Of a stretch of DNA of 64,000 nucleotides, positions 43,356 to 54,178 are shown piece by piece. Position numbers and translations under genes: made by a program. The stretch lies in the NCBI GenBank assembly GCA_902595855.1, contig CACJRY010000007.1:1-64000 (forward strand), read 5' to 3'. The notes beneath the pieces are model-generated. The model had not been told where the DNA came from and ran no database searches. It saw only the letters and a list, made by a program, of their open reading frames with translations. Origin of the DNA: an uncultured Alphaproteobacteria bacterium (GTDB taxonomy: Bacteria; Pseudomonadota; Alphaproteobacteria; HIMB59; GCA-002718135). Within the stretch, counting starts at the first letter, position 1. Every line of letters starts with the position of its first letter.

Positions 43356-44408
43356 ATGGACATCTCCATCATAATTTTTCTCTTAGGTGGATTATTTCTT
43401 GGGTGGTCTTTAGGTGCAAATGATGCGGCGAATGTTTTTGGAACAGCTGTTGGAACACGCATGGTGCGTTTTAAAACGGCGGCTATTGTGTGTAGCATTT
43501 TTGTAATTTTAGGTGCCATCATTAGTGGGTCAGGTACAACAGAAACATTAGGTAAACTTGGTGCCATCAATGCGCTTCCCGGTGCCTTTGCTGCTTGTGT
43601 TGCTGCTGGTGTATCCGTTTATCTAATGACGAAAGCAGGGCTTCCTGTTTCTACAACGCAGGCTATTGTTGGCGCCATTGTAGGATGGAATTTGTATACC
43701 GGATCAGACACAAATATTAGAGTACTTATTACGATACTTGGAACATGGGTGCTATGCCCTGTCATTGCTGGCGTTATAGCAATGGGATTTTTTACAATTA
43801 CAAAAAATTATCTTTTAAGAAGAAAACTACATATTCTACGATTAGATGCTTATACAAGAACAGCACTACTTTTAGCAGGAGCTTTTGGTGCCTATAGTTT
43901 AGGAGCTAACAATATTGCCAACGTCATGGGTGTGTTTGTTCCTATCTCTCCCTTTACGGATGTTTCAATTTCTAATTTTTTTGTTTTTAGTTCCAAAGAA
44001 CAATTATTTTTACTGGGCGGATTAGCGATTGCCGTTGGTGTTTTTACCTACTCAAAAAAAGTGATGTTTACAGTTGGTAATGATCTATTAAAAATGTCAC
44101 CGGTTGCCGCTTTTATTGTTGTTATCTCTCATTCTATTGTTTTATTTTTATTTGCCTCTCAAGGTATTAGCAATTTTTTACAATCAATAAATTTACCCTC
44201 AATTCCTCTTGTTCCTGTCTCCAGTTCACAAGCAGTTGTTGGGGCTGTGATTGGAATAGGATTATTAAAGGGAGGGAAAGAAGTGCAATGGTCAGTTGCT
44301 GGTAGAATTACAATTGGCTGGTTTACGCTTCCTGTAATTGCAGCTTTAATATCAATGATATTATTATTTATTCTCTCTAATATTTTTAATTTAACCGTAT
44401 CGTTTTAA
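43356..44408 (+). CDS. pit: Inorganic phosphate transporter, PiT family
   Basis: The 350-residue low-affinity phosphate permease has about ten helices and two canonical signatures. First copy: LGWSLGANDAANVFGTAVG near 20 and AGLPVSTTQAIVGAIVGW near 108. Second copy: SLGANNIANVMGVF near 181 and PLVPVSSSQAVVGAVIGIGL near 285. It is driven by protons or sodium. It forms a two-gene operon with DUF47. Codon use has more GCC, GTG and CGT than the first 35 kb, in line with a different history for this island. The stop overlaps the convergent phosphatase gene by 4 bp. Confidence 0.95.
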   Translation: MDISIIIFLLGGLFLGWSLGANDAANVFGTAVGTRMVRFKTAAIVCSIFVILGAIISGSGTTETLGKLGAINALPGAFAACVAAGVSVYLMTKAGLPVSTTQAIVGAIVGWNLYTGSDTNIRVLITILGTWVLCPVIAGVIAMGFFTITKNYLLRRKLHILRLDAYTRTALLLAGAFGAYSLGANNIANVMGVFVPISPFTDVSISNFFVFSSKEQLFLLGGLAIAVGVFTYSKKVMFTVGNDLLKMSPVAAFIVVISHSIVLFLFASQGISNFLQSINLPSIPLVPVSSSQAVVGAVIGIGLLKGGKEVQWSVAGRITIGWFTLPVIAALISMILLFILSNIFNLTVSF

Positions 44409-44926
44409 TTTACTGCTCGGTACGCAGTGATAAAATCTTCTTGAACTTTCGTTTCTATTGCCCCTTTTCTTCTCTCTCTAACAAGTTCAATAGCATCTTT
44501 TTTTTCATAGCCAAAATCAACTAATAATATTGCGGCAATTGTTCCTGCTCGTCCTTTGCCACCTCTGCAATGAAATACAACATTCGATCCCTCAATAAGT
44601 TCATTTTTAAGTAATACTTTTGTTGTCTCCCATTTAAATTTAAAATCCTGATTGGGCGCTCCTAAATCTTGAATGGGTAAGTGATACCATTTTAAATGTT
44701 GTCGATAAATTTTCTCAACAAATAATTTTTTATCACATAACTTTTCAAATTCTTTATCTTCCACAAAAGAAGTAATCGAACTACATTGGTGTTTTGAAAA
44801 GAGTTCCAGTTGTGATGCTAGAATATTTTCATCAAATTTTCCTTCATCATTTAAACCTGGAAAAGAAGTTAAAACTATGTTGCCAGCAAATTTATTTGAA
44901 TCGACAAAATCATATGAATCAAACAT
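44405..44926 (-). CDS. Dual-specificity/tyrosine phosphatase-like protein
   Basis: The 173-residue protein has the Cys-phosphatase P-loop VVFHCRGGKGRAGTIAAILL near residue 120 (HCx5R with nucleophile Cys and Arg), preceded by WYHLPIQDLGAPNQDF, where the general-acid Asp is expected. It resembles the CDKN3/KAP and bacterial dual-specificity group. It is 2 bp downstream of the PhnZ-like gene in the same operon and sits in a phosphonate cluster, so the substrate may be a small phospho-compound and not a protein. The substrate is unknown. Confidence 0.8.
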   Translation of the reverse strand: MFDSYDFVDSNKFAGNIVLTSFPGLNDEGKFDENILASQLELFSKHQCSSITSFVEDKEFEKLCDKKLFVEKIYRQHLKWYHLPIQDLGAPNQDFKFKWETTKVLLKNELIEGSNVVFHCRGGKGRAGTIAAILLVDFGYEKKDAIELVRERRKGAIETKVQEDFITAYRAVN

Positions 44927-44928
44927 TA

Positions 44929-45489
44929 TTAGTTTGCAGATGCTTGAAATGAATTTTCTACGTATTGTCTAAAATGCTCTACTGATGGTGTTGCTTTATT
45001 AAGTATTTTTGCCTGATCATCATACCGTCGCATTTCAACAGCTTCTTTCATTTGTGGTTTGTTGATAAATTCCTCTGCTTCCTCTTTTGTGAAAATGCCA
45101 CCCTGTACTTTAAGTGACTCTTTGGATGCTTCAGATAATTGATCATAGTACCCGTCTTCTATCGCAGCAAGATATCTCTTTGACGCCACGTGAGCTCTGA
45201 TGGGAAGTGTTACTTCTTCACTAAAATATTTTGCTAAATAATCAGCTCCTAAATCTTCATGGACACCGTCTTTACCTTCATGAATTGGATCTTTATCTTC
45301 GTATAAAAGGTGACCAATATCATGTAGCAGTGCTGCTGTAATAAAAGCATCAGATTTGTTATTTTGTTCAGCTAGTTCGGCACACTGAAGAGCATGCTCT
45401 AATTGCGTGACATCCTCATTACCATACTGAATGTCCGACCCTTTTTTTTCTAGTAATTCGAGCAAATAATCAACGACATTCTCAGACAT
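44929..45489 (-). CDS. phnZ-like: PhnZ-like HD-domain mixed-valent diiron oxygenase
   Basis: PhnZ cleaves the C-P bond of (R)-1-hydroxy-2-aminoethylphosphonate to glycine and phosphate. The 186-residue protein has IQYGNEDVTQLEHALQCAELAE near 20-41, with Tyr22 and Glu25 placed like the gating Tyr24/Glu27 pair of PhnZ. AALLHDIGHLL (His56, Asp57, His60), later His residues near 77 and 100, and RRYDDQAKI near 155 complete the HD metal site. It matches the phosphonate-operon HD protein family. The partner 2-oxoglutarate hydroxylase (PhnY*) is not in this window. It is divergent from phnW across a clear inverted repeat. Confidence 0.85.
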   Translation of the reverse strand: MSENVVDYLLELLEKKGSDIQYGNEDVTQLEHALQCAELAEQNNKSDAFITAALLHDIGHLLYEDKDPIHEGKDGVHEDLGADYLAKYFSEEVTLPIRAHVASKRYLAAIEDGYYDQLSEASKESLKVQGGIFTKEEAEEFINKPQMKEAVEMRRYDDQAKILNKATPSVEHFRQYVENSFQASAN

Positions 45490-45495
45490 ACTTGT

Positions 45496-45537
45496 GTTTT
45501 AACTTATTAGGATTTTTTTTTCAAATATAAGTTAAAC
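45496..45537. promoter_or_regulatory. Inverted repeat between phnZ-like gene and phnW
   Basis: GTTTTAACTTAT (45496-45507) and ATAAGTTAAAC (45527-45537) are reverse complements apart from one extra T, separated by 19 bp that include a run of nine T. The location in the short divergent gap between two phosphonate-degradation genes suggests an operator for a dimeric regulator or an mRNA hairpin at the phnW leader. No regulator gene is adjacent. Confidence 0.5.
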
Positions 45538-45585
45538 CATTTGATAACACTCTTAGAAAGATTTAAGAAGAATAGAAAAAATTTC

Positions 45586-46689
45586 ATGGACAAAAAACTT
45601 TTAACTCCAGGACCTTTAACAACTTCCATAAGCACAAAAGAGGCAATGCTTCATGACTGGGGTTCACGCGATCAAAAATTTATAGACTTAAATCAATCCA
45701 TCAGAGACTCTTTAATCAAGTTGATTGATGGAGAGGGAAACTATCAATGTGTGCCTATGCAGGGAAGCGGGACGTTTGCTGTTGAGTCCATGATAAGTTC
45801 GTTAACCTCAAAAGATGCACATATTCTAATCTTAATTAACGGTGCCTACGGGCAACGCATGAAAAAAATGTGCTCTTATTTGGGTCGAAACATAATTGAA
45901 TACGAGGTTGCTGAACATGAACCTCATGATATAAAAAAATTAGAAGAAATCATTGATGCGAACCCGCAATTAACCCATGTTTTTGCTGTTTATTGTGAAA
46001 CAACATCAGGTATTCTTAATCCTATTGAAGATATTGCAAGTTTGGTTGAGAAAAAAAACTTGTCCTTGTTTATTGATGCTATGAGTGCATTTGGGGCTCT
46101 ACCGCTTAGTAGTAAAAATGTTACGTTTGATGCTGTTGCAGCCTCATCCAATAAGTGCTTAGAGGGCGTGCCGGGCGTTGGATTCATTTTAATGAAAAAC
46201 CAAGTCATAGAAAATGCAAAAGGAAATTGTCATTCACTGAGTTTAGATTTGTATGATCAATGGACAGCCATGGAAAAAAATAAACAATGGCGTTTTACCC
46301 CGCCAACACATGTCTTAGCAGCATTTAACCAGGCAATTACTGAGCATGAAAAAGAGGGCGGTGTTGCAGGAAGACATCAACGATATAAAAATAATTGTAA
46401 AATTATATGCGATGGAATGAAAGACATTGGTTTTGAACAATTGCTACCCGATGCACTACAGGCACCAATTATCATTACGTTCAAACAACCAAACGATCCT
46501 AATTTTAATTTCCAACAATTTTATAATGCGCTCAGTGATAAAGATTTTTTAATTTACCCTGGAAAATTAACCGTGGCTGATACCTTTCGTATTGGGTGCA
46601 TAGGTAATTTACACGAACAAGATATGAAAGATACAATTGCTGCTGTTAAAGAAGTAGTCAGTGAATTAAATATTAACGTTAAAAATTAA
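45586..46689 (+). CDS. phnW: 2-aminoethylphosphonate:pyruvate aminotransferase
   Basis: A PLP-dependent class V aminotransferase converting 2-aminoethylphosphonate and pyruvate to phosphonoacetaldehyde and alanine. The N-terminus KLLTPGPLTTSISTKEAMLHDWGSRDQ is the PhnW signature. GSGTFAVESMI binds cofactor phosphate, FIDAMSAFGALPL has the PLP-ring Asp, and AAASSNKCLEGVPGVGFI contains the Schiff-base Lys near 194. I use ATG 45586 (367 aa), the typical PhnW length, rather than a TTG 15 codons earlier. It starts the plus-strand part of the phosphonate cluster. Confidence 0.95.
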   Translation: MDKKLLTPGPLTTSISTKEAMLHDWGSRDQKFIDLNQSIRDSLIKLIDGEGNYQCVPMQGSGTFAVESMISSLTSKDAHILILINGAYGQRMKKMCSYLGRNIIEYEVAEHEPHDIKKLEEIIDANPQLTHVFAVYCETTSGILNPIEDIASLVEKKNLSLFIDAMSAFGALPLSSKNVTFDAVAASSNKCLEGVPGVGFILMKNQVIENAKGNCHSLSLDLYDQWTAMEKNKQWRFTPPTHVLAAFNQAITEHEKEGGVAGRHQRYKNNCKIICDGMKDIGFEQLLPDALQAPIIITFKQPNDPNFNFQQFYNALSDKDFLIYPGKLTVADTFRIGCIGNLHEQDMKDTIAAVKEVVSELNINVKN

Positions 46690-46695
46690 TTGCCG

Positions 46696-47325
46696 ATGAG
46701 CGATGCTGTTGAAATACCTCTAGTTAAAGCGACCAATGAAACACTTAAAGGATATGGGTACTTAATTGATTCCTATGAAAATAGTGACATAGAAATTGTT
46801 ACCTGGCCAAAACAGGGTTGGCGGGAAATTGATGAAGGAACAGGAAATGAGGGAGGTAGCACGGAGGGATCTTTTGATGCTTGGTGGGAAGGAAGCACTT
46901 TATACGGACAAAATAATGCAGTCCAACACAATAGTGATTACGAAGTGGATGGAAAATACATACTAGGACATGCTTTGCCTCCAACGAGTGAACCAGCAAC
47001 AGAATATAAAAAACCTGACCACATTTATATTTGGCATGTTAATTACCACCCTGATGGTGGACAACTCTTTTACCCCTCCATTAAAAGTCCTTTCATTTCA
47101 CCCTTAGCCTTACCCGGGGATGACGTTCAAGTTGGTGATTTTAAGGCGTTTTTTTTTGATGGATCGCAGGGACTTTATATACACCCAAATGTTTGGCATG
47201 AAGGCGTCTTTCCAATTGAAGAGAAAAGTTCCTTCCAAGGGCGTCAAGGCAAAGTACACGCAAGAGTAAGTATTGACTTACAAAAAGAATTCAAAAAATA
47301 TATTTATTTTAAAACCACATTATAA
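46696..47325 (+). CDS. AllA/ureidoglycolate lyase-like cupin in phosphonate cluster
   Basis: The 209-residue protein from ATG 46696 resembles ureidoglycolate lyase family cupins. IYIWHVNYHPDGGQLFYPS near 118 corresponds to the His-rich (H-x-x-GxQ-x-F-x-P) motif, and FKAFFFDGSQGLYIHPNVWHEGVF near 150-175 to the second cupin motif with GxYxHxxxWHxxxF. Known members act on ureidoglycolate, but no purine or allantoin gene is nearby. The gene lies 6 bp after phnW. A role in phosphonate metabolism, for example on an unstable amino or hydroxy intermediate, is only an inference. Confidence 0.7.
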   Translation: MSDAVEIPLVKATNETLKGYGYLIDSYENSDIEIVTWPKQGWREIDEGTGNEGGSTEGSFDAWWEGSTLYGQNNAVQHNSDYEVDGKYILGHALPPTSEPATEYKKPDHIYIWHVNYHPDGGQLFYPSIKSPFISPLALPGDDVQVGDFKAFFFDGSQGLYIHPNVWHEGVFPIEEKSSFQGRQGKVHARVSIDLQKEFKKYIYFKTTL

Positions 47326-47341
47326 AACTTAAATAATTAAA

Positions 47342-48160
47342 ATGAAAATAATTCATTTATCTGATATTCATATTCACTCATCGTCAATCCTAGGGCATAA
47401 TCCCATTGAGCGTTTTAGCTTAGCACTTGATCATATTAAAAATAATCATCTTGACTCAGATATGCTGATAATAACAGGAGACATTACCCATCAAGGCGAT
47501 TTAGCTTCCTATAAAAAGTTTGATGAAATTTTTACAAAAGCTAATTTACCAGATCATCTTAATCCAAAATTATTAATAGGTAATCATGATGACCGTAAAA
47601 TCTTTAAAAATTATTTTACTAAAATACCCAATGATAAAAATGGATTTGTCCAATATGATATTGAAATTGATGACATGCGATTTCTTTTTTTAGATACAAT
47701 ACAAGAAAACTCTCATGCAGGTCACTATTGTGAAAAAAGGCTATTATGGTTAAAAAATAAATTAGATGAAAGTCTAAAAAAGAATCAAAACGTGTTTATG
47801 TTCATGCATCACAATCCTTTTCCGCTTGTAAAGCTGAAAAGTGATTTGATAGGCTTAGTAGATAGAGATCAATTTAAGTCTATTATTGATAACTATAAAA
47901 TTGTTATAAAACATATTTTTTTTGGACATCAACACATCACTGTTTCTGGTACTTTTCTTGGTATTCCCTTTTCTTCACCAAGAAGTATCAGTCATCCTTT
48001 AGTACCTAATTTTTCCAATGAATATAGATTAGGATATGCCAACACAGATCCTAGTTATAACATTGTACTTTTAAATAATGACTCTGTTATAATTCACAGT
48101 GAAGATTTTCTTAAGACTGATATAAGCTGGTTTGAAACAACAGAGCCGGGGTCTTTATAA
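47342..48160 (+). CDS. Calcineurin-like metallophosphoesterase (CpdA/GpdQ type)
   Basis: The 272-residue protein shows all five metallophosphoesterase blocks: HLSDIHIHSS (D-x-H), ITGDITHQGD (GD), LIGNHDDRKIF (GNHD), MFMHHNPFPL (H) and FFGHQHITVSG (GHxH). Class III relatives include cyclic-nucleotide and glycerophosphodiester phosphodiesterases. It is co-directional with phnW and the cupin (17 bp gap), so a phosphonate mono- or diester is a plausible substrate. The gene ends convergently with the methyltransferase-like gene. Confidence 0.85.
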   Translation: MKIIHLSDIHIHSSSILGHNPIERFSLALDHIKNNHLDSDMLIITGDITHQGDLASYKKFDEIFTKANLPDHLNPKLLIGNHDDRKIFKNYFTKIPNDKNGFVQYDIEIDDMRFLFLDTIQENSHAGHYCEKRLLWLKNKLDESLKKNQNVFMFMHHNPFPLVKLKSDLIGLVDRDQFKSIIDNYKIVIKHIFFGHQHITVSGTFLGIPFSSPRSISHPLVPNFSNEYRLGYANTDPSYNIVLLNNDSVIIHSEDFLKTDISWFETTEPGSL

Positions 48161-48188: not shown

Positions 48189-49295
48189 TCAATTTTTGGT
48201 TATTACAAATAACTCATTTTTAAAATACAGGCCTTTGTTTTGATTTATTATTTTCGCGACTACTTGTTGATATTTTGTTGTTTTTTCAGCTTCTATCACT
48301 TTAAAATCATCAATTTGATTTACGTATACAGCTACATTCCAAGCAGAAAATATTATTGATGTTGCTATACCACCCTGAATCTCAGTTGGTAATGCTCGCA
48401 AATTACATTTTATAATTTTCTTATCTAAGAATTTTATTTTTTTTAAGTCCTCTTTAGGGAAAGATGTTTTAATATATTGAATAATCTGTTTCGCTAAAGA
48501 TGAAAAAGGTTTTTCATTTGGCCAGATTTTTTTTATGATTTGATTTGCTGGATCCTTGCCAGCTGCATGAACGATAATCAACTTTCCTTTCTTTGCTAAT
48601 GCATTTATCATAGGAGCAATGACATATTTAACTTTTTTTTCAGCAGGAATTCTTGAACGATAAGGTTGTGATGCTATGATAAGATCAAATTTATTTTTTG
48701 GTCTTAATTTAGTTGGTATAATATCACTTAAAACAAATTCTTGATCTCTCCTATAAATAACAAGCACTGATGGTATTTTATAAGTAGGATTACCAGTCCT
48801 TGAGTCTGTCTCAATCTCCCAATTTTTTTCTAAGAACTTATTAATATCTCTTAATTGTTTTGCATAATCAATTGAGGTGCTTCCCTTAAGTTTAATATTT
48901 TTCCAATTTATTTTTTTTTGTTTAGTTGGATTATTGGATTGTAAATTTGCAGCCTCTGAATAATGCATGTTTGAAATAATAAATACTGTATTTTTATGTT
49001 CAACAAATCTATCTGGTAATTTTTCAAGTCCAAGCCTAACATCTTCCATGCTGATTTCTTTTGTAGATACTAAGTGGGGAATATTTGGATGTTCTTGATG
49101 AGCTTGTCGCATTAAATTCATTAATAATGAACCATCACCCATACCTGCATCAAAAATCTTTAAAGCTGGCTTAGTTGGTTTAATTTTTTTTATATGTGGA
49201 TGTATATTGTCAGCGATAATATTTTTTTCATTTGTTGTGGTAACAAATAATAAATATTTTTGTCTATTATCAAAAAATCTAAAATTCTTTTTCAT
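48189..49295 (-). CDS. SAM-dependent methyltransferase-like protein, phosphonate-cluster associated
   Basis: A 368-residue protein with a class I methyltransferase core. ALKIFDAGMGDGSLLMNLM near residue 45 is SAM motif I. The DLIIASQPYRSR (motif IV-like) and KKGKLIIVHAAGKDP (motif V-like) follow near 208-250. The rest is not a family I can name. It is the last gene of a minus-strand operon with an iron alcohol dehydrogenase, phnY and phnA, with zero bases between it and the dehydrogenase. Context suggests it acts on a phosphonate or its head group, but the substrate is unknown. Confidence 0.6.
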   Translation of the reverse strand: MKKNFRFFDNRQKYLLFVTTTNEKNIIADNIHPHIKKIKPTKPALKIFDAGMGDGSLLMNLMRQAHQEHPNIPHLVSTKEISMEDVRLGLEKLPDRFVEHKNTVFIISNMHYSEAANLQSNNPTKQKKINWKNIKLKGSTSIDYAKQLRDINKFLEKNWEIETDSRTGNPTYKIPSVLVIYRRDQEFVLSDIIPTKLRPKNKFDLIIASQPYRSRIPAEKKVKYVIAPMINALAKKGKLIIVHAAGKDPANQIIKKIWPNEKPFSSLAKQIIQYIKTSFPKEDLKKIKFLDKKIIKCNLRALPTEIQGGIATSIIFSAWNVAVYVNQIDDFKVIEAEKTTKYQQVVAKIINQNKGLYFKNELFVITKN

Positions 49296-50408
49296 TTAAA
49301 AAACACTCATCTCCTTACATGCTTTGTCGAAAGCTTCTTTATTTCCTAAAAAATTTTTACCCCTTTCTCCATCAAAAGACTCAGAAACAATTAGGTCCCA
49401 TTTTTGCTTTGTAATATTTAACTCATTTAAATTAAGAGGTACACCAAGACTTCTAAGTTTGTTTAAAAGCAAAACTGAGGATACATCTAAATCATTATTA
49501 AATATTTTTTTTAACCTTTGCTCAGCTATTTCATTAATTCCTTTCATACTACGCATAATGAAAGGGAGACTAAATGAACATGCTATTCCATGTTGAATTC
49601 CAAACTCAAGTGTAATCGGATAAGATATATTATGCGATATTGCCGTTTTTGTGTTTGAAAAAGCTAGGCCTGCATGAATACATGCTAAGGCTAAATTAGT
49701 TCTCAATTCTAAATTATTTAAATCATTTGCTAACATTGGCAAATTTTCTAGCACTAGTCTTGCTCCTTGAATACCATGGAATGCAGATATCGGGTTGGCA
49801 TTAATATTCCATATACTTTCCATAGAATGAGAAAGTGCGTCTAGACCCGTTGATATTGTTAGTTGTTTTGGTTTATTTAATAATAATGTTGGGTCAATTA
49901 TTGCTGTTTTTGGATATAATTTTGTGTGAGAAAGAGAAAATTTTTTGTTACTTGCTTTATCCCATATTGTTGCCCAACAAGTTAATTCACTGGAAGAGCC
50001 TGATGTTGTAGGTACAGTTATTAAATCAATTGGGTCATATATTAATGGCGGTTTATTTCTTTTGATAAAGTCAGTTAAAAGTTTTTTATTATCTTTAAAT
50101 GCAGCAATAACTTTTGCTGAGTCCATCACTGAACCTCCACCAATTGCTAAAATAAAATCTATATTGTGAAAATTTATTTTAGATAAGAAATCCATTAATA
50201 AAATTAAATCTTCATAATCTGGATTTGGATTTATTTTACTATAGATTAATTGTGGTGCATTGATTGAATTTAATATTTCATTTAAATATTCTTTAAAAAT
50301 AAAATCTGAAGTTATAAGAATATATTTTTTTTTCTCTGTAATCTTTTGAATTTCATTTATTTTTTTTTCACCAAAAATAATATTTACAGGATTGTTGTAT
50401 TGCCACAT
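49296..50408 (-). CDS. Iron-containing alcohol dehydrogenase, phosphonoacetaldehyde reductase-like
   Basis: The 370-residue group III alcohol dehydrogenase starts MWQYNNPVNIIFGEKKI. NAD-binding GGGSVMDSAKVIA is near 92, and the metal-site region is TGLDALSHSMESIW near 200 and THNISYPITLEFGIQHGIACSFSLPF near 258 with the iron His residues. In phosphonate biosynthesis such enzymes reduce phosphonoacetaldehyde to 2-hydroxyethylphosphonate. In this degradative setting the reverse reaction would feed hydroxyethylphosphonate into PhnY/PhnA. Specificity is inferred from neighbours only. Confidence 0.8.
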   Translation of the reverse strand: MWQYNNPVNIIFGEKKINEIQKITEKKKYILITSDFIFKEYLNEILNSINAPQLIYSKINPNPDYEDLILLMDFLSKINFHNIDFILAIGGGSVMDSAKVIAAFKDNKKLLTDFIKRNKPPLIYDPIDLITVPTTSGSSSELTCWATIWDKASNKKFSLSHTKLYPKTAIIDPTLLLNKPKQLTISTGLDALSHSMESIWNINANPISAFHGIQGARLVLENLPMLANDLNNLELRTNLALACIHAGLAFSNTKTAISHNISYPITLEFGIQHGIACSFSLPFIMRSMKGINEIAEQRLKKIFNNDLDVSSVLLLNKLRSLGVPLNLNELNITKQKWDLIVSESFDGERGKNFLGNKEAFDKACKEMSVF

Positions 50409-50420
50409 AAATTTATAAAT

Positions 50421-51860
50421 TTACCAAGGTAAAGAAAAAGTTTTTACATTAGTAAAACTTTTCATTGCTTCAATAACTCCCTCTTTATACCCTAATCCCG
50501 AGTCTTTAATTCCACCAAAAGGTGACATTTCAATACGGTAGCCTGGAACCTCCCAAATATTTACAGTTCCAACATTTAGTTCCTGAATATAATTTTTAGC
50601 CCTATTAAAATTATTAGTACACACACCTGAAGATAATCCAAAAGCTGTTGAGTTAGATATTTTTATGACTTGTTCATCTTCATCCGGAACTCTAATAATT
50701 GGTATCACAGGTCCAAAAGTTTCTTCCCTAACAAGTTCACTTTTATAATTTACATTATCAACAACTATAGGGGGAAGTAGTGCGCCATTTCTTCCTGGGT
50801 GATATAATACTTTAGCACCATCTTCTTCTGCCATTGATACTCTTTTATCAAATAGTTCAGCGGCTTCAGCATTAACAACTGTTCCTAAATCTGTTTGCAT
50901 ATCCATAGGATCACCAAACTTTATTTTTTTTGCTCTCTCTAATGCCATTTCAACAAATTTATCAGCGACTTTATCTTGGCATAAAATTCTCTTTACTGCT
51001 GTACAACGTTGTCCTGAATTTTTCGTTGCACCAGTTACAGCGAGCTCAACAGCTTTTTTTAGATCATCATCATTTAGGTCGTTCAAAACAATTAAAGGGT
51101 CATTTCCCCCTAATTCTAAAACAGTTCGTTTGTACCCAGCTTGTTCAGCAATATATTTACCTACCCCAACGCTACCGGTAAAAGTAATAAGATCTATATT
51201 AGGATTTTTAATCATTTCTAATCCAATATCTTCAGGCCAACCGGTAACAACCGAAAACATTTCTGGTGGAAGACCAGCTTCGTATAAAACATCTGCTAAA
51301 ATCATCGCTGTCATAGGTGTTAACTCTGTTTGTTTACAAACCGTACAATTATTTGTTGCAATTGATGGCGCAATTTTGTGCGCAACCATATTAAGAGGAT
51401 GATTAAAAGGAGTAATGGCTGAAATTGCTGTTAATGGTTCTCTTATTGTAAATATTTTTCTAGCTTTCCCGTGAGGTGTTAAATCACAAGAAAAAATTTC
51501 ACCGTCATCCAGAATACACAGCTGAGCAGTTAAGGAAAAGACATCAAAAGCCCTTCCTACTTCATAAAGTGAATCTTGTTTTGAAATACCAAGTTCATAA
51601 GTGATGACATCTGATATCTCCTCTTTTCTTCTGACTAATTCTTCAGCAGTCTTCTGAAGTATTTGCTGGCGTTCATATCTTGTAAGTTTTGGTTTAAAAT
51701 TAGCAGCTATGTCAAGAGCTTGCTTAGCATGCTCTGCAGTTCCAGCAGGCACTGTTCCAATTACTTGATTGCTATAAGGATAATAAACCTCAATATTTTT
51801 TTCAGCATCAACTTTTTTTCCAGCAATACGCATAGATTGATGATCAATATTTTTTGTCAT
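50421..51860 (-). CDS. phnY: Phosphonoacetaldehyde dehydrogenase
   Basis: An aldehyde dehydrogenase of 479 residues that oxidises phosphonoacetaldehyde to phosphonoacetate with NAD. Landmarks are [23 protein letters not shown] (substrate and NAD region), [32 protein letters not shown] with the general-base Glu near 255, and [15 protein letters not shown] with the catalytic Cys near 290. The PhnY name rests on adjacency to phnA (one-base overlap) and the presence of phnW in the same cluster. It should complete the PhnW-PhnY-PhnA pathway. Confidence 0.92.
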
Positions 51861-53101
51861 TACATAGCTCCTGATATTGCGTAATAAAATGCATCATAAT
51901 TATTTAGCTTCACATTAGCATCATTTAAATTAATTTTTTTATTAGAAATAAATGGAACTTCTCTTTCATGAAGACCTCCGTGAGAGCGAAGAGGTTCTTT
52001 TAATTTACTAAGATCATGGGCTTTTTCTGCCGATCCAATTGTTGAGTTTTTTGAAGACATACAAATAATATCACCCATTCTATCTGTGGGTAAATCATAC
52101 TGAGCACAACCCTCTTCATTAGTAAGCACAACCTCAATATCGTCTATTTTTTGAATTTCCACAATCGCATCATGGATTCGAGATTTATCATCCAAATACA
52201 CTGTTGCAAAAGAACCAAGAGCGCCGTGATGAACAACGTATGGATCGGTTATTGGAAGAATTACTTTAGAAATATCCTTACCTAATGTTTCATCGAGTAT
52301 ATCTTGAAGAAAGATCGCATTTGGTGAGCCATCAGATCTAGATTTTGGTTGCATGCCATGATCTGCTGTCACAATAATTGAATTATTATTAACATTTAAT
52401 TGTCCTATGTACCTGTCAAACATAGAGTAAAAAGCATTAGCCGCTTCATCACCTGGGGCATACTTATGTTGGATAAAATCTGTTGTCGATAAATACATAA
52501 TATCGGGATTGAACTCATTTAATATTTTTACACCAGCCGCCATGACAAATTCTGATAAACCTTGCGAGTAAACATTTGGTACCTCCATGTCTAACCATTT
52601 GTTTACCTCCTCTATTCCATTTTCATTTAAATTGGCTTGATCAGATTTTTCAGAAGAGAAACAAATAGCTCTAGACTCATTGAATTTCAGACCATGGGAT
52701 AAAAGTTTTCTCAGCTTATCTTTTGCAGTCACAATAGCAATTTTAGCACCTTGCTCGTAATATTTTTGAAAAATTGAAGGTGCTCTTAAAAATTGAGGGT
52801 CATTCATCATCACCTCTTCTCCTGTTGAAGGAGTATAAAAAAAGTTTCCGCAAATGCCATGTATAGAACTAGGTCTTCCTGTTACGATAGATATATTATT
52901 AGGGTTAGTAAAACTTGGGATAGCACTATTTACTAATAAATCTTCTCCATTCTTTTTAAATGAATCAATATTGGGAGTGAGGTTTAATTTTGAAGCTTCT
53001 TCAAAATATTCTTTTTGACTTCCATCTAAACATATCACAATTGCAGTTGAAGATGGTATCCCTGGATATGTTCTTTGGTTAATCTCTATTGGTGATGACA
53101 T
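51860..53101 (-). CDS. phnA: Phosphonoacetate hydrolase
   Basis: An alkaline-phosphatase superfamily enzyme of 413 residues that splits phosphonoacetate into acetate and phosphate. The N-terminus is [15 protein letters not shown] (first metal Asp near 27). [31 protein letters not shown] near 58-88 carries the nucleophile Thr. [17 protein letters not shown] near 203, [10 protein letters not shown] near 245 and [13 protein letters not shown] near 375 provide the remaining Asp and His ligands. It is the first gene of the phnA-phnY-Fe-ADH-methyltransferase operon. Confidence 0.94.
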
Positions 53102-53335: not shown

Positions 53336-54178
53336 ATGTCTAGCTATTTCTTATTTTTACTATTATTAATTGCAGCATTATCACACGCAGTTTGTCACAG
53401 CATTCTTAAATATAATAAAAACCCTTTAGGTGTATTAGGTATCACGTCAATTATTGAAATAATTATTTTTACTCCACTTGTAATTAGTGTGCCTTTTCCA
53501 ACTCCATATATTTGGTTGCTTATAATAACATCAGCTCTTCTTCATGGATTTTATAGATTGCTTGTAATTTTTTCATACAAATTTGGAGATTTATCTTTTA
53601 TTTATCCTATAGCACGAGGAAGCTCCTCTCTATTACTTGCATTAATAAGTTTAATTTATTTAACAGATAAAATTTCTTTAGTTGGCTTCATTGCTATTTT
53701 GATAGTCTGCTCAGGTTTGTTTTTAATTTCATACTCAGACAAATTGAAGTTTAATTATTCAGCGTTTGGTTTGGGTTTTTTAACAGCAATAATGATAACT
53801 ACTTATACTTTAGTGGATGGTATTGGTGTAAGACATTCTGAAAATCCTTACTCTTATATTTATTGGATGCTTTTGCTAAATGGTATTCCTACATTAATTG
53901 CTGCATTTTTTTTTAAAAATATAGGATTGCGCAAGATCAAAAAGGAAATTTTCTTACCTGGAATTGCATTTGGACTCTTAGCTCCTTTAGCTTACGGATT
54001 AGTAGTTTGGTGTATGCAATTCTTACCAATAGCTTATGTATCTTCTATAAGAGAAACTAGTATCATATTTGCAACTATAATAGGCTTGATTATTTTAAAA
54101 GAAAATACTGCCTCAAAAAGAATCATACCTTCAATATTCATAGTCATAGGCATATCTCTGTTATATTTTCAAATTTAA
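53336..54178 (+). CDS. EamA/DMT-family transporter of the phosphonate cluster
   Basis: A 280-residue ten-helix drug/metabolite transporter-type protein with two EamA halves. The halves are visible as FIYPIARGSSSLLLALISLIYLTDKISLVGFIAILIVCSGLFLI (end of the first) and the matching LPIAYVSSIRETSIIFATIIGLIILKENTASKRIIPSIFIVIGISLLY (end of the second). EamA proteins move amino acids, amines and other metabolites, commonly as exporters. Divergent from phnA with a shared control region, it may move a phosphonate or an aminophosphonate; no PhnCDE transporter is seen. ATG 53336 is preferred over the preceding TTG. Confidence 0.85.
   Translation: MSSYFLFLLLLIAALSHAVCHSILKYNKNPLGVLGITSIIEIIIFTPLVISVPFPTPYIWLLIITSALLHGFYRLLVIFSYKFGDLSFIYPIARGSSSLLLALISLIYLTDKISLVGFIAILIVCSGLFLISYSDKLKFNYSAFGLGFLTAIMITTYTLVDGIGVRHSENPYSYIYWMLLLNGIPTLIAAFFFKNIGLRKIKKEIFLPGIAFGLLAPLAYGLVVWCMQFLPIAYVSSIRETSIIFATIIGLIILKENTASKRIIPSIFIVIGISLLYFQI

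Follow-up and report, generated by a model that had tools for sequence, protein, structure and literature searches.

The iron alcohol dehydrogenase (Fe-ADH) encoded behind phnA and phnY in this DNA probably feeds 2-hydroxyethylphosphonate (HEP) into a carbon-phosphorus degradation operon, and the methyltransferase (MT) encoded next to it would have a separate function linked to methionine and SAM, with the four genes likely forming one transcription unit. We give this reading as a whole a probability of roughly 0.6. The window, i.e. the whole stretch of 64,000 nucleotides that was analysed, comes from an uncultured alphaproteobacterium (contig CACJRY010000007.1). In the proposed pathway, Fe-ADH would act as a PsrA-type, NAD(P)-dependent enzyme oxidising HEP to phosphonoacetaldehyde, which PhnY would convert to phosphonoacetate and PhnA would split into acetate and phosphate. 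An alcohol could then enter through this operon, in addition to the amine entry located a few kb away on the other strand, where PhnW would bring aminophosphonates to the same phosphonoacetaldehyde. We infer the substrate, direction and cofactor of Fe-ADH from the gene order, its family placement, its metal ligands and the genes around its kin.

PhnA, PhnY, Fe-ADH and MT follow one another in that order, all on the minus strand (Table 1). PhnA and PhnY share 1 base, 12 bases separate PhnY from Fe-ADH, and the TAA stop of Fe-ADH abuts the ATG start of MT. The initial annotation had reported no bases between the last two genes and a position close behind phnA-phnY, which the open reading frames bear out exactly; its wording that they are fused into the operon holds for gene adjacency but not for the proteins, among which no fusion exists. 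A promoter scan of the locus gave 26 matches against 30.0 ± 5.4 in shuffled sequences, i.e. no excess, so that spacing alone is what suggests co-transcription. PhnA and PhnY are adjacent and both exceed their curated cut-offs, as in the known PhnA-PhnY hydrolytic pathway, and PhnW is nearby; the window differs in having an alcohol dehydrogenase as a putative second entry.

Table 1. Genes of the phosphonate locus in the window, with profile scores in bits.
Feature	Position	Strand	Length	Profile scores
PhnZ-type HD-domain oxygenase	44929-45489	-		TIGR03276 206.5, just under cut-off 214.6
PhnW-type 2-AEP:pyruvate transaminase	45586-46689	+		NF010006 523.7, cut-off 296
SpdA-like calcineurin-type phosphodiesterase, convergent neighbour	47342-48160	+		PF00149 55.2; NF050112 195.7, below cut-off 400
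MT, uncharacterised SAM-dependent methyltransferase, HNMT/SABATH-like predicted fold	48189-49295	-	368 aa	
Fe-ADH, iron alcohol dehydrogenase resembling PsrA, putative 2-hydroxyethylphosphonate dehydrogenase	49296-50408	-	370 aa	
PhnY, phosphonoacetaldehyde dehydrogenase	50421-51860	-	479 aa	TIGR03250 784.4, cut-off 635.65
PhnA, phosphonoacetate hydrolase	51860-53101	-	413 aa	TIGR02335 464.3, cut-off 407.55
EamA-type membrane protein, phn_DUF6 kind	53336-54178	+		TIGR03340 119.8, below cut-off 288.15

A second phosphonate block (44405-47325) holds PhnW, a ureidoglycolate-lyase-like protein, the PhnZ-type HD oxygenase and a dual-specificity-phosphatase-like neighbour. The lyase-like protein matches PF04115 (40.2 bits) in its C-terminal part only, and adjoins PhnW in relatives too. 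In one related locus (L063:12020-20653), about 6 kb of other genes separate PhnW from the HD gene. There, identity to the window is 91-95% for PhnW, HD and the lyase-like gene and 68-87% for PhnA, PhnY and MT, a contrast that suggests recombination.

The best curated family of Fe-ADH is TIGR03405, the phosphonate-associated iron alcohol dehydrogenases that NCBI names PsrA. Its score of 334.8 bits is 89 bits under the cut-off of 423.7, so that by score alone it falls outside PsrA. Its domains match PF00465 (120.9 bits) and PF25137 (104 bits), the metal ligands D190, H194, H259 and H273 and the GGGSxxD motif are kept in all 19 aligned relatives, and identity to PsrA-type proteins outside its own order is 38-47%. 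In a tree of 19 proteins, Fe-ADH falls in a clade of nine with its own genus and family f2 (support 99/99), and the 17 phn-type sequences split from two distant outgroups (branch 100/100), within the limits set by the root and the choice of outgroup. Hence, Fe-ADH groups among the TIGR03405/PsrA phosphonate-linked dehydrogenases, with which it shares the PhnA and PhnY context, the conserved metal ligands and the nucleotide motif. It differs from these systems in its lower score, in its third position in phnA-phnY-FeADH-MT, and in lacking a PhnCDE transporter alongside.

The kin of Fe-ADH keep similar company. With TIGR03405 at 1e-80, 12 of the 385 genomes of the class match, 6 of them above cut-off. 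Five of these six loci have PhnD- and PhnE-type genes alongside; no phn gene was detected beside Fe-ADH in L211, which also exceeds the cut-off. PhnD, PhnE, PhnA and PhnY are all beside Fe-ADH in L207, another of the six, and L214 has the order PhnA-aldehyde dehydrogenase-Fe-ADH-EamA with PhnD and PhnE types further along. Two loci (L213, L218) show PhnA-PhnY-binding protein-MetE-like-Fe-ADH. The two weakest matches (L215, L216) have no phn neighbour, showing that more distant dehydrogenases match the model outside a phn context. Nine plasmid records carry relatives, of which six were examined for context. Phn genes were seen in five, and the Burkholderia stretch carries no annotation. The annotated orders are psrA-substrate-binding protein-phnC-phnE-permease-phnA-phnY (Leisingera), psrA-phnA-phnY (Ensifer), phnDCE-psrA-phnX (Comamonas), phnX-LysR-psrA (Agrobacterium), and Fe-ADH-binding protein-phnC-phnE (Vibrio). 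Together with the best family and the tree, this context upholds the proposal that the dehydrogenase is tied to phosphonates. PhnW-like matches were found in none of the 19 Fe-ADH-bearing stretches examined, which means that phosphonoacetaldehyde must come from a different enzyme in these loci; production of the aldehyde from HEP by Fe-ADH would explain such PhnW-less operons.

Could Fe-ADH oxidise another alcohol, for example a short-chain one, and sit here by chance? Its best PDB sequence match is a methanol dehydrogenase, and a SAR11 Fe-ADH near formate-THF ligase has been proposed, in passages of PMC3160333, to act on methanol and further short primary alcohols. Its grouping away from the two outgroups, with dehydrogenases that stay beside phn genes in several lineages, speaks against this, and we regard it as unlikely. 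The initial annotation also left room for the opposite direction, reduction of phosphonoacetaldehyde for biosynthesis, in which Fe-ADH would be a reductase of the PhpC kind. PhpC-type reductases are indeed iron alcohol dehydrogenases (from excerpts of PMC9381506), and the Vibrio homologue is annotated as a phosphonoacetaldehyde reductase, but the latter stands with phosphonate uptake genes. In the own genome, which is 84% complete, we found no match to PEP mutase (PF13714), no PhnD-type binding protein, and only below-cut-off matches to phosphonopyruvate decarboxylase, the best pair being two short open reading frames on C8; 13 of 14 control genomes also give such matches. These results make phosphonate biosynthesis unlikely, and the lack of PEP mutase matches favours the catabolic direction. 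The initial annotation had called for such a search (pepM, ppd). We consider a biosynthetic reductase highly improbable. Alternatively, Fe-ADH may be a phosphonoacetaldehyde reductase run in reverse, or serve detoxification. Direct formation of phosphonoacetaldehyde by HEP oxidation is raised in part of PMC12366243 for another enzyme, where it was thought less likely; in the open-access literature searched, we found nothing on PsrA with phosphonates or on an HEP dehydrogenase.

A survey of 41 loci, many from near-identical single-cell genomes, indicates that Fe-ADH is a variable element of the operon. Fe-ADH and MT occur together in 31 loci, and in all 31 the gap is between -2 and +2 bases, a tightness that is not due to chance. 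Eight rows have PhnY followed directly by MT (two of them, L225 and L032, look like the same contig), and close relatives (L030-L033, L065, L110, L223) keep phnA-phnY-MT without Fe-ADH. Among the others, L047 starts too near a contig end to judge Fe-ADH, and L064, which belongs to SAR11, has no phn genes. Between the window and genome G444, PhnY is 97%, PhnA 95% and MT 91% identical, whereas Fe-ADH (counterpart at L217:8956-10065) is only 64-65% identical. Given this low identity relative to its neighbours and its patchy presence, Fe-ADH seems to have been gained, lost or exchanged more often than they were, pointing to single-gene replacement or rapid turnover at the locus. In most sampled strains, two more genes, one for a sugar-type binding protein and one MetE-like, come between PhnY and Fe-ADH; both are absent from the window. 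The MetE-like protein, which matches Meth_synt_2 only, lies between the binding protein and Fe-ADH at L034:7802-8881 and L213:8472-9554; most related strains, and family f2 as well, have such a gene inside their phnA-phnY operon.

The initial annotation could not name a family for MT, and neither could we. Searches of Pfam, NCBIfam and PDB sequences, with the single protein and with its members or their profile, gave no convincing match or match above cut-off, and sequence searches of viral contigs and plasmids gave nothing. Weak matches to UPF0020 and Hen1 (E 0.05-0.09) were dropped. An AlphaFold2 model built from 58 sequences reached a pLDDT of 81.1 and a pTM of 0.82 (four other models averaged 64-68), with residues 1-18 and 302-311 poorly modelled. 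Foldseek matched it to 224 PDB chains at E <= 0.001, and the best 50 comprise only methyltransferases and cyclopropane fatty acid synthase, a related enzyme. In VIA-align, histamine N-methyltransferase (HNMT, 1jqe) scored Z 16.9 (rmsd 3.9 over 255 residues), and SABATH enzymes came out level with one another at about Z 16. Residues D49, G51, G53 and D54 of motif I, together with E80 and D204, are invariant in 21 of 21 sequences. By its predicted fold, MT is thus a class I SAM methyltransferase, with a Rossmann SAM fold, a glycine-rich motif I and an acidic residue after strand 2, in agreement with the SAM-dependent chemistry first suggested for it; a fold lacking a SAM pocket would have spoken against that chemistry, and the motif is intact. 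MT resembles HNMT and the plant SABATH methyltransferases in predicted fold along almost its entire length (rmsd 3.8-4.2), but identity is 8-14%, no sequence profile matches, and MT is bacterial, has methionine-cycle neighbours and carries its own invariant N-terminal motif. The open-access literature searched yielded nothing on bacterial relatives of SABATH or HNMT enzymes. In some alphaproteobacterial loci (L115:8288-9763, L120:7993-9357, L231:8751-10226, L239:8040-9623), the open frame is about 80-150 residues longer at the N-terminus, an extension that has no Pfam match and is absent from the MT of the window.

MT is frequent in the order (82 of 100 genomes) and found in 27 of 385 genomes of the class, two of these being very weak matches (G108, E 3.5e-4; G013, E 8.8e-4) that were left out of the counts. 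The phylum-wide search found it in 18 of 398 genomes, 17 of them in its own class; the sole match outside (G491) spans 43 residues and was not counted. Species genomes were also scanned, with 555 relatives confirmed; the best 80 of these 555, which were kept, belong to SAR11-type or related marine genomes. MT is a well-defined methyltransferase lacking a named sequence family, present in many SAR11-type genomes from one of the most numerous groups in the ocean.

Its neighbours argue for a methionine-linked role. The window's clade has phn genes (PhnA, PhnW, HD) within 3 kb of MT in 29 of its 35 loci, but none of 45 SAR11, 23 class and 16 further loci has any at this distance; one class locus (L129) has PhnA within 5 kb. 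Methionine or one-carbon genes lie within 3 kb in all 45 SAR11 loci (formate-THF ligase in 18, MetY in 27), 12 of 23 class loci (MTHFR-like in 11) and 10 of 16 further loci (MetK in 10, MetE-like in 9), although close relatives among these loci are not independent counts. The remaining 11 class loci, some on short contigs, have no such neighbour within 3 kb. As a control, MTHFR matches were counted across the 23 class genomes: with only 1-4 per genome of 1.4-8 Mb, finding one beside MT in 11 of them is far above chance. These 11 copies are divergent (about 45-122 bits); those scoring 230-333 bits, in 12 of these genomes, are others. Weaker MTHFR-like neighbours occur in L231 and L234 (16.9 and 22.2 bits, cut-off 24). 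The SAR11 one-carbon gene set (fhs, metF) is a known system that MT adjoins through formate-THF ligase; MT is not named in the parts of PMC3160333 consulted.

The initial annotation had suggested that MT may methylate a phosphonate oxygen or nitrogen, a proposal that our results do not support: outside the genus, the family was not found beside phosphonate genes and has methionine, SAM and folate genes there instead. More likely than a phosphonate methyltransferase, MT is an enzyme of the SAM/methionine cycle that methylates a small molecule. It would draw on SAM that the methionine-cycle genes usually alongside produce and recycle, and in the window's genus it would have come to lie behind phnA-phnY. 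We infer this substrate type and the link to the methyl cycle from the predicted fold, the SAM motif, the distribution and the neighbours. In the MT tree, the phn-adjacent sequences form one clade (97/95) nested within non-phn sequences, which gives the phosphonate link the look of a late, local event. The sister group of the window's genus is SAR11, with same-family genera branching outside both, a topology that does not demonstrate strict vertical descent. One may still suppose that, within this genus, MT transfers a methyl group to a nitrogen or oxygen of a phosphonate or its ester, with Fe-ADH as partner: the single phn-adjacent clade and the rows with PhnY directly before MT fit this, and the constant spacing from Fe-ADH could mean a shared function. 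Yet the SAR11 orthologues are 65-70% identical and nowhere near phn genes, family f2 keeps a Fe-ADH-phnA-phnY unit apart from MT (Fe-ADH is about 10 kb away in G337), and genera of the same family (L219-L222) keep MT with no PhnA, PhnW or Fe-ADH in the examined stretches. We consider phosphonate methylation quite unlikely, and favour the methionine-linked role.

HEP is a main marine phosphonate, ester-bound in dissolved polysaccharides, and its degradation is described as proceeding by C-P lyase with ethylene release (both from sections of PMC9381506 and PMC5649143). A hydrolytic route in ocean bacteria, if true, would mean a different fate for the phosphorus and carbon of HEP. In L212, Fe-ADH comes after genes for UgpB (568.9 bits, cut-off 411), for permeases, for an ATPase and for an SpdA-like protein. 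Speculatively, such a UgpB-type transporter and SpdA-like phosphodiesterase could point to ester-bound phosphonates as a source, and the SpdA-like enzyme of the window could release them. A still wider picture, somewhat unlikely as a whole and offered tentatively, is that SAR11-related marine bacteria mineralise HEP, including that ester-bound in dissolved polysaccharides or lipids, without releasing ethylene via PsrA-PhnY-PhnA, a route supplied by an ABC transporter of the sugar/glycerol-phosphate type together with an SpdA-like phosphodiesterase, and that the neighbouring MT is an unrecognised SAM-dependent family which, in SAR11 and other Alphaproteobacteria, serves a dedicated methyl cycle with MTHFR-like and MetE-like partners of its own.

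Two other arrangements around MT were observed. An M24 protein resembling DddP follows MT in family f2 (L129:9611-10927, L130:9760-11046); that of L129 scores 369 bits against the DddP cut-off of 600 and was not called DddP. At L128:7312-11743, MT is the last gene behind an apparent sugar-type ABC transporter that shares its strand.
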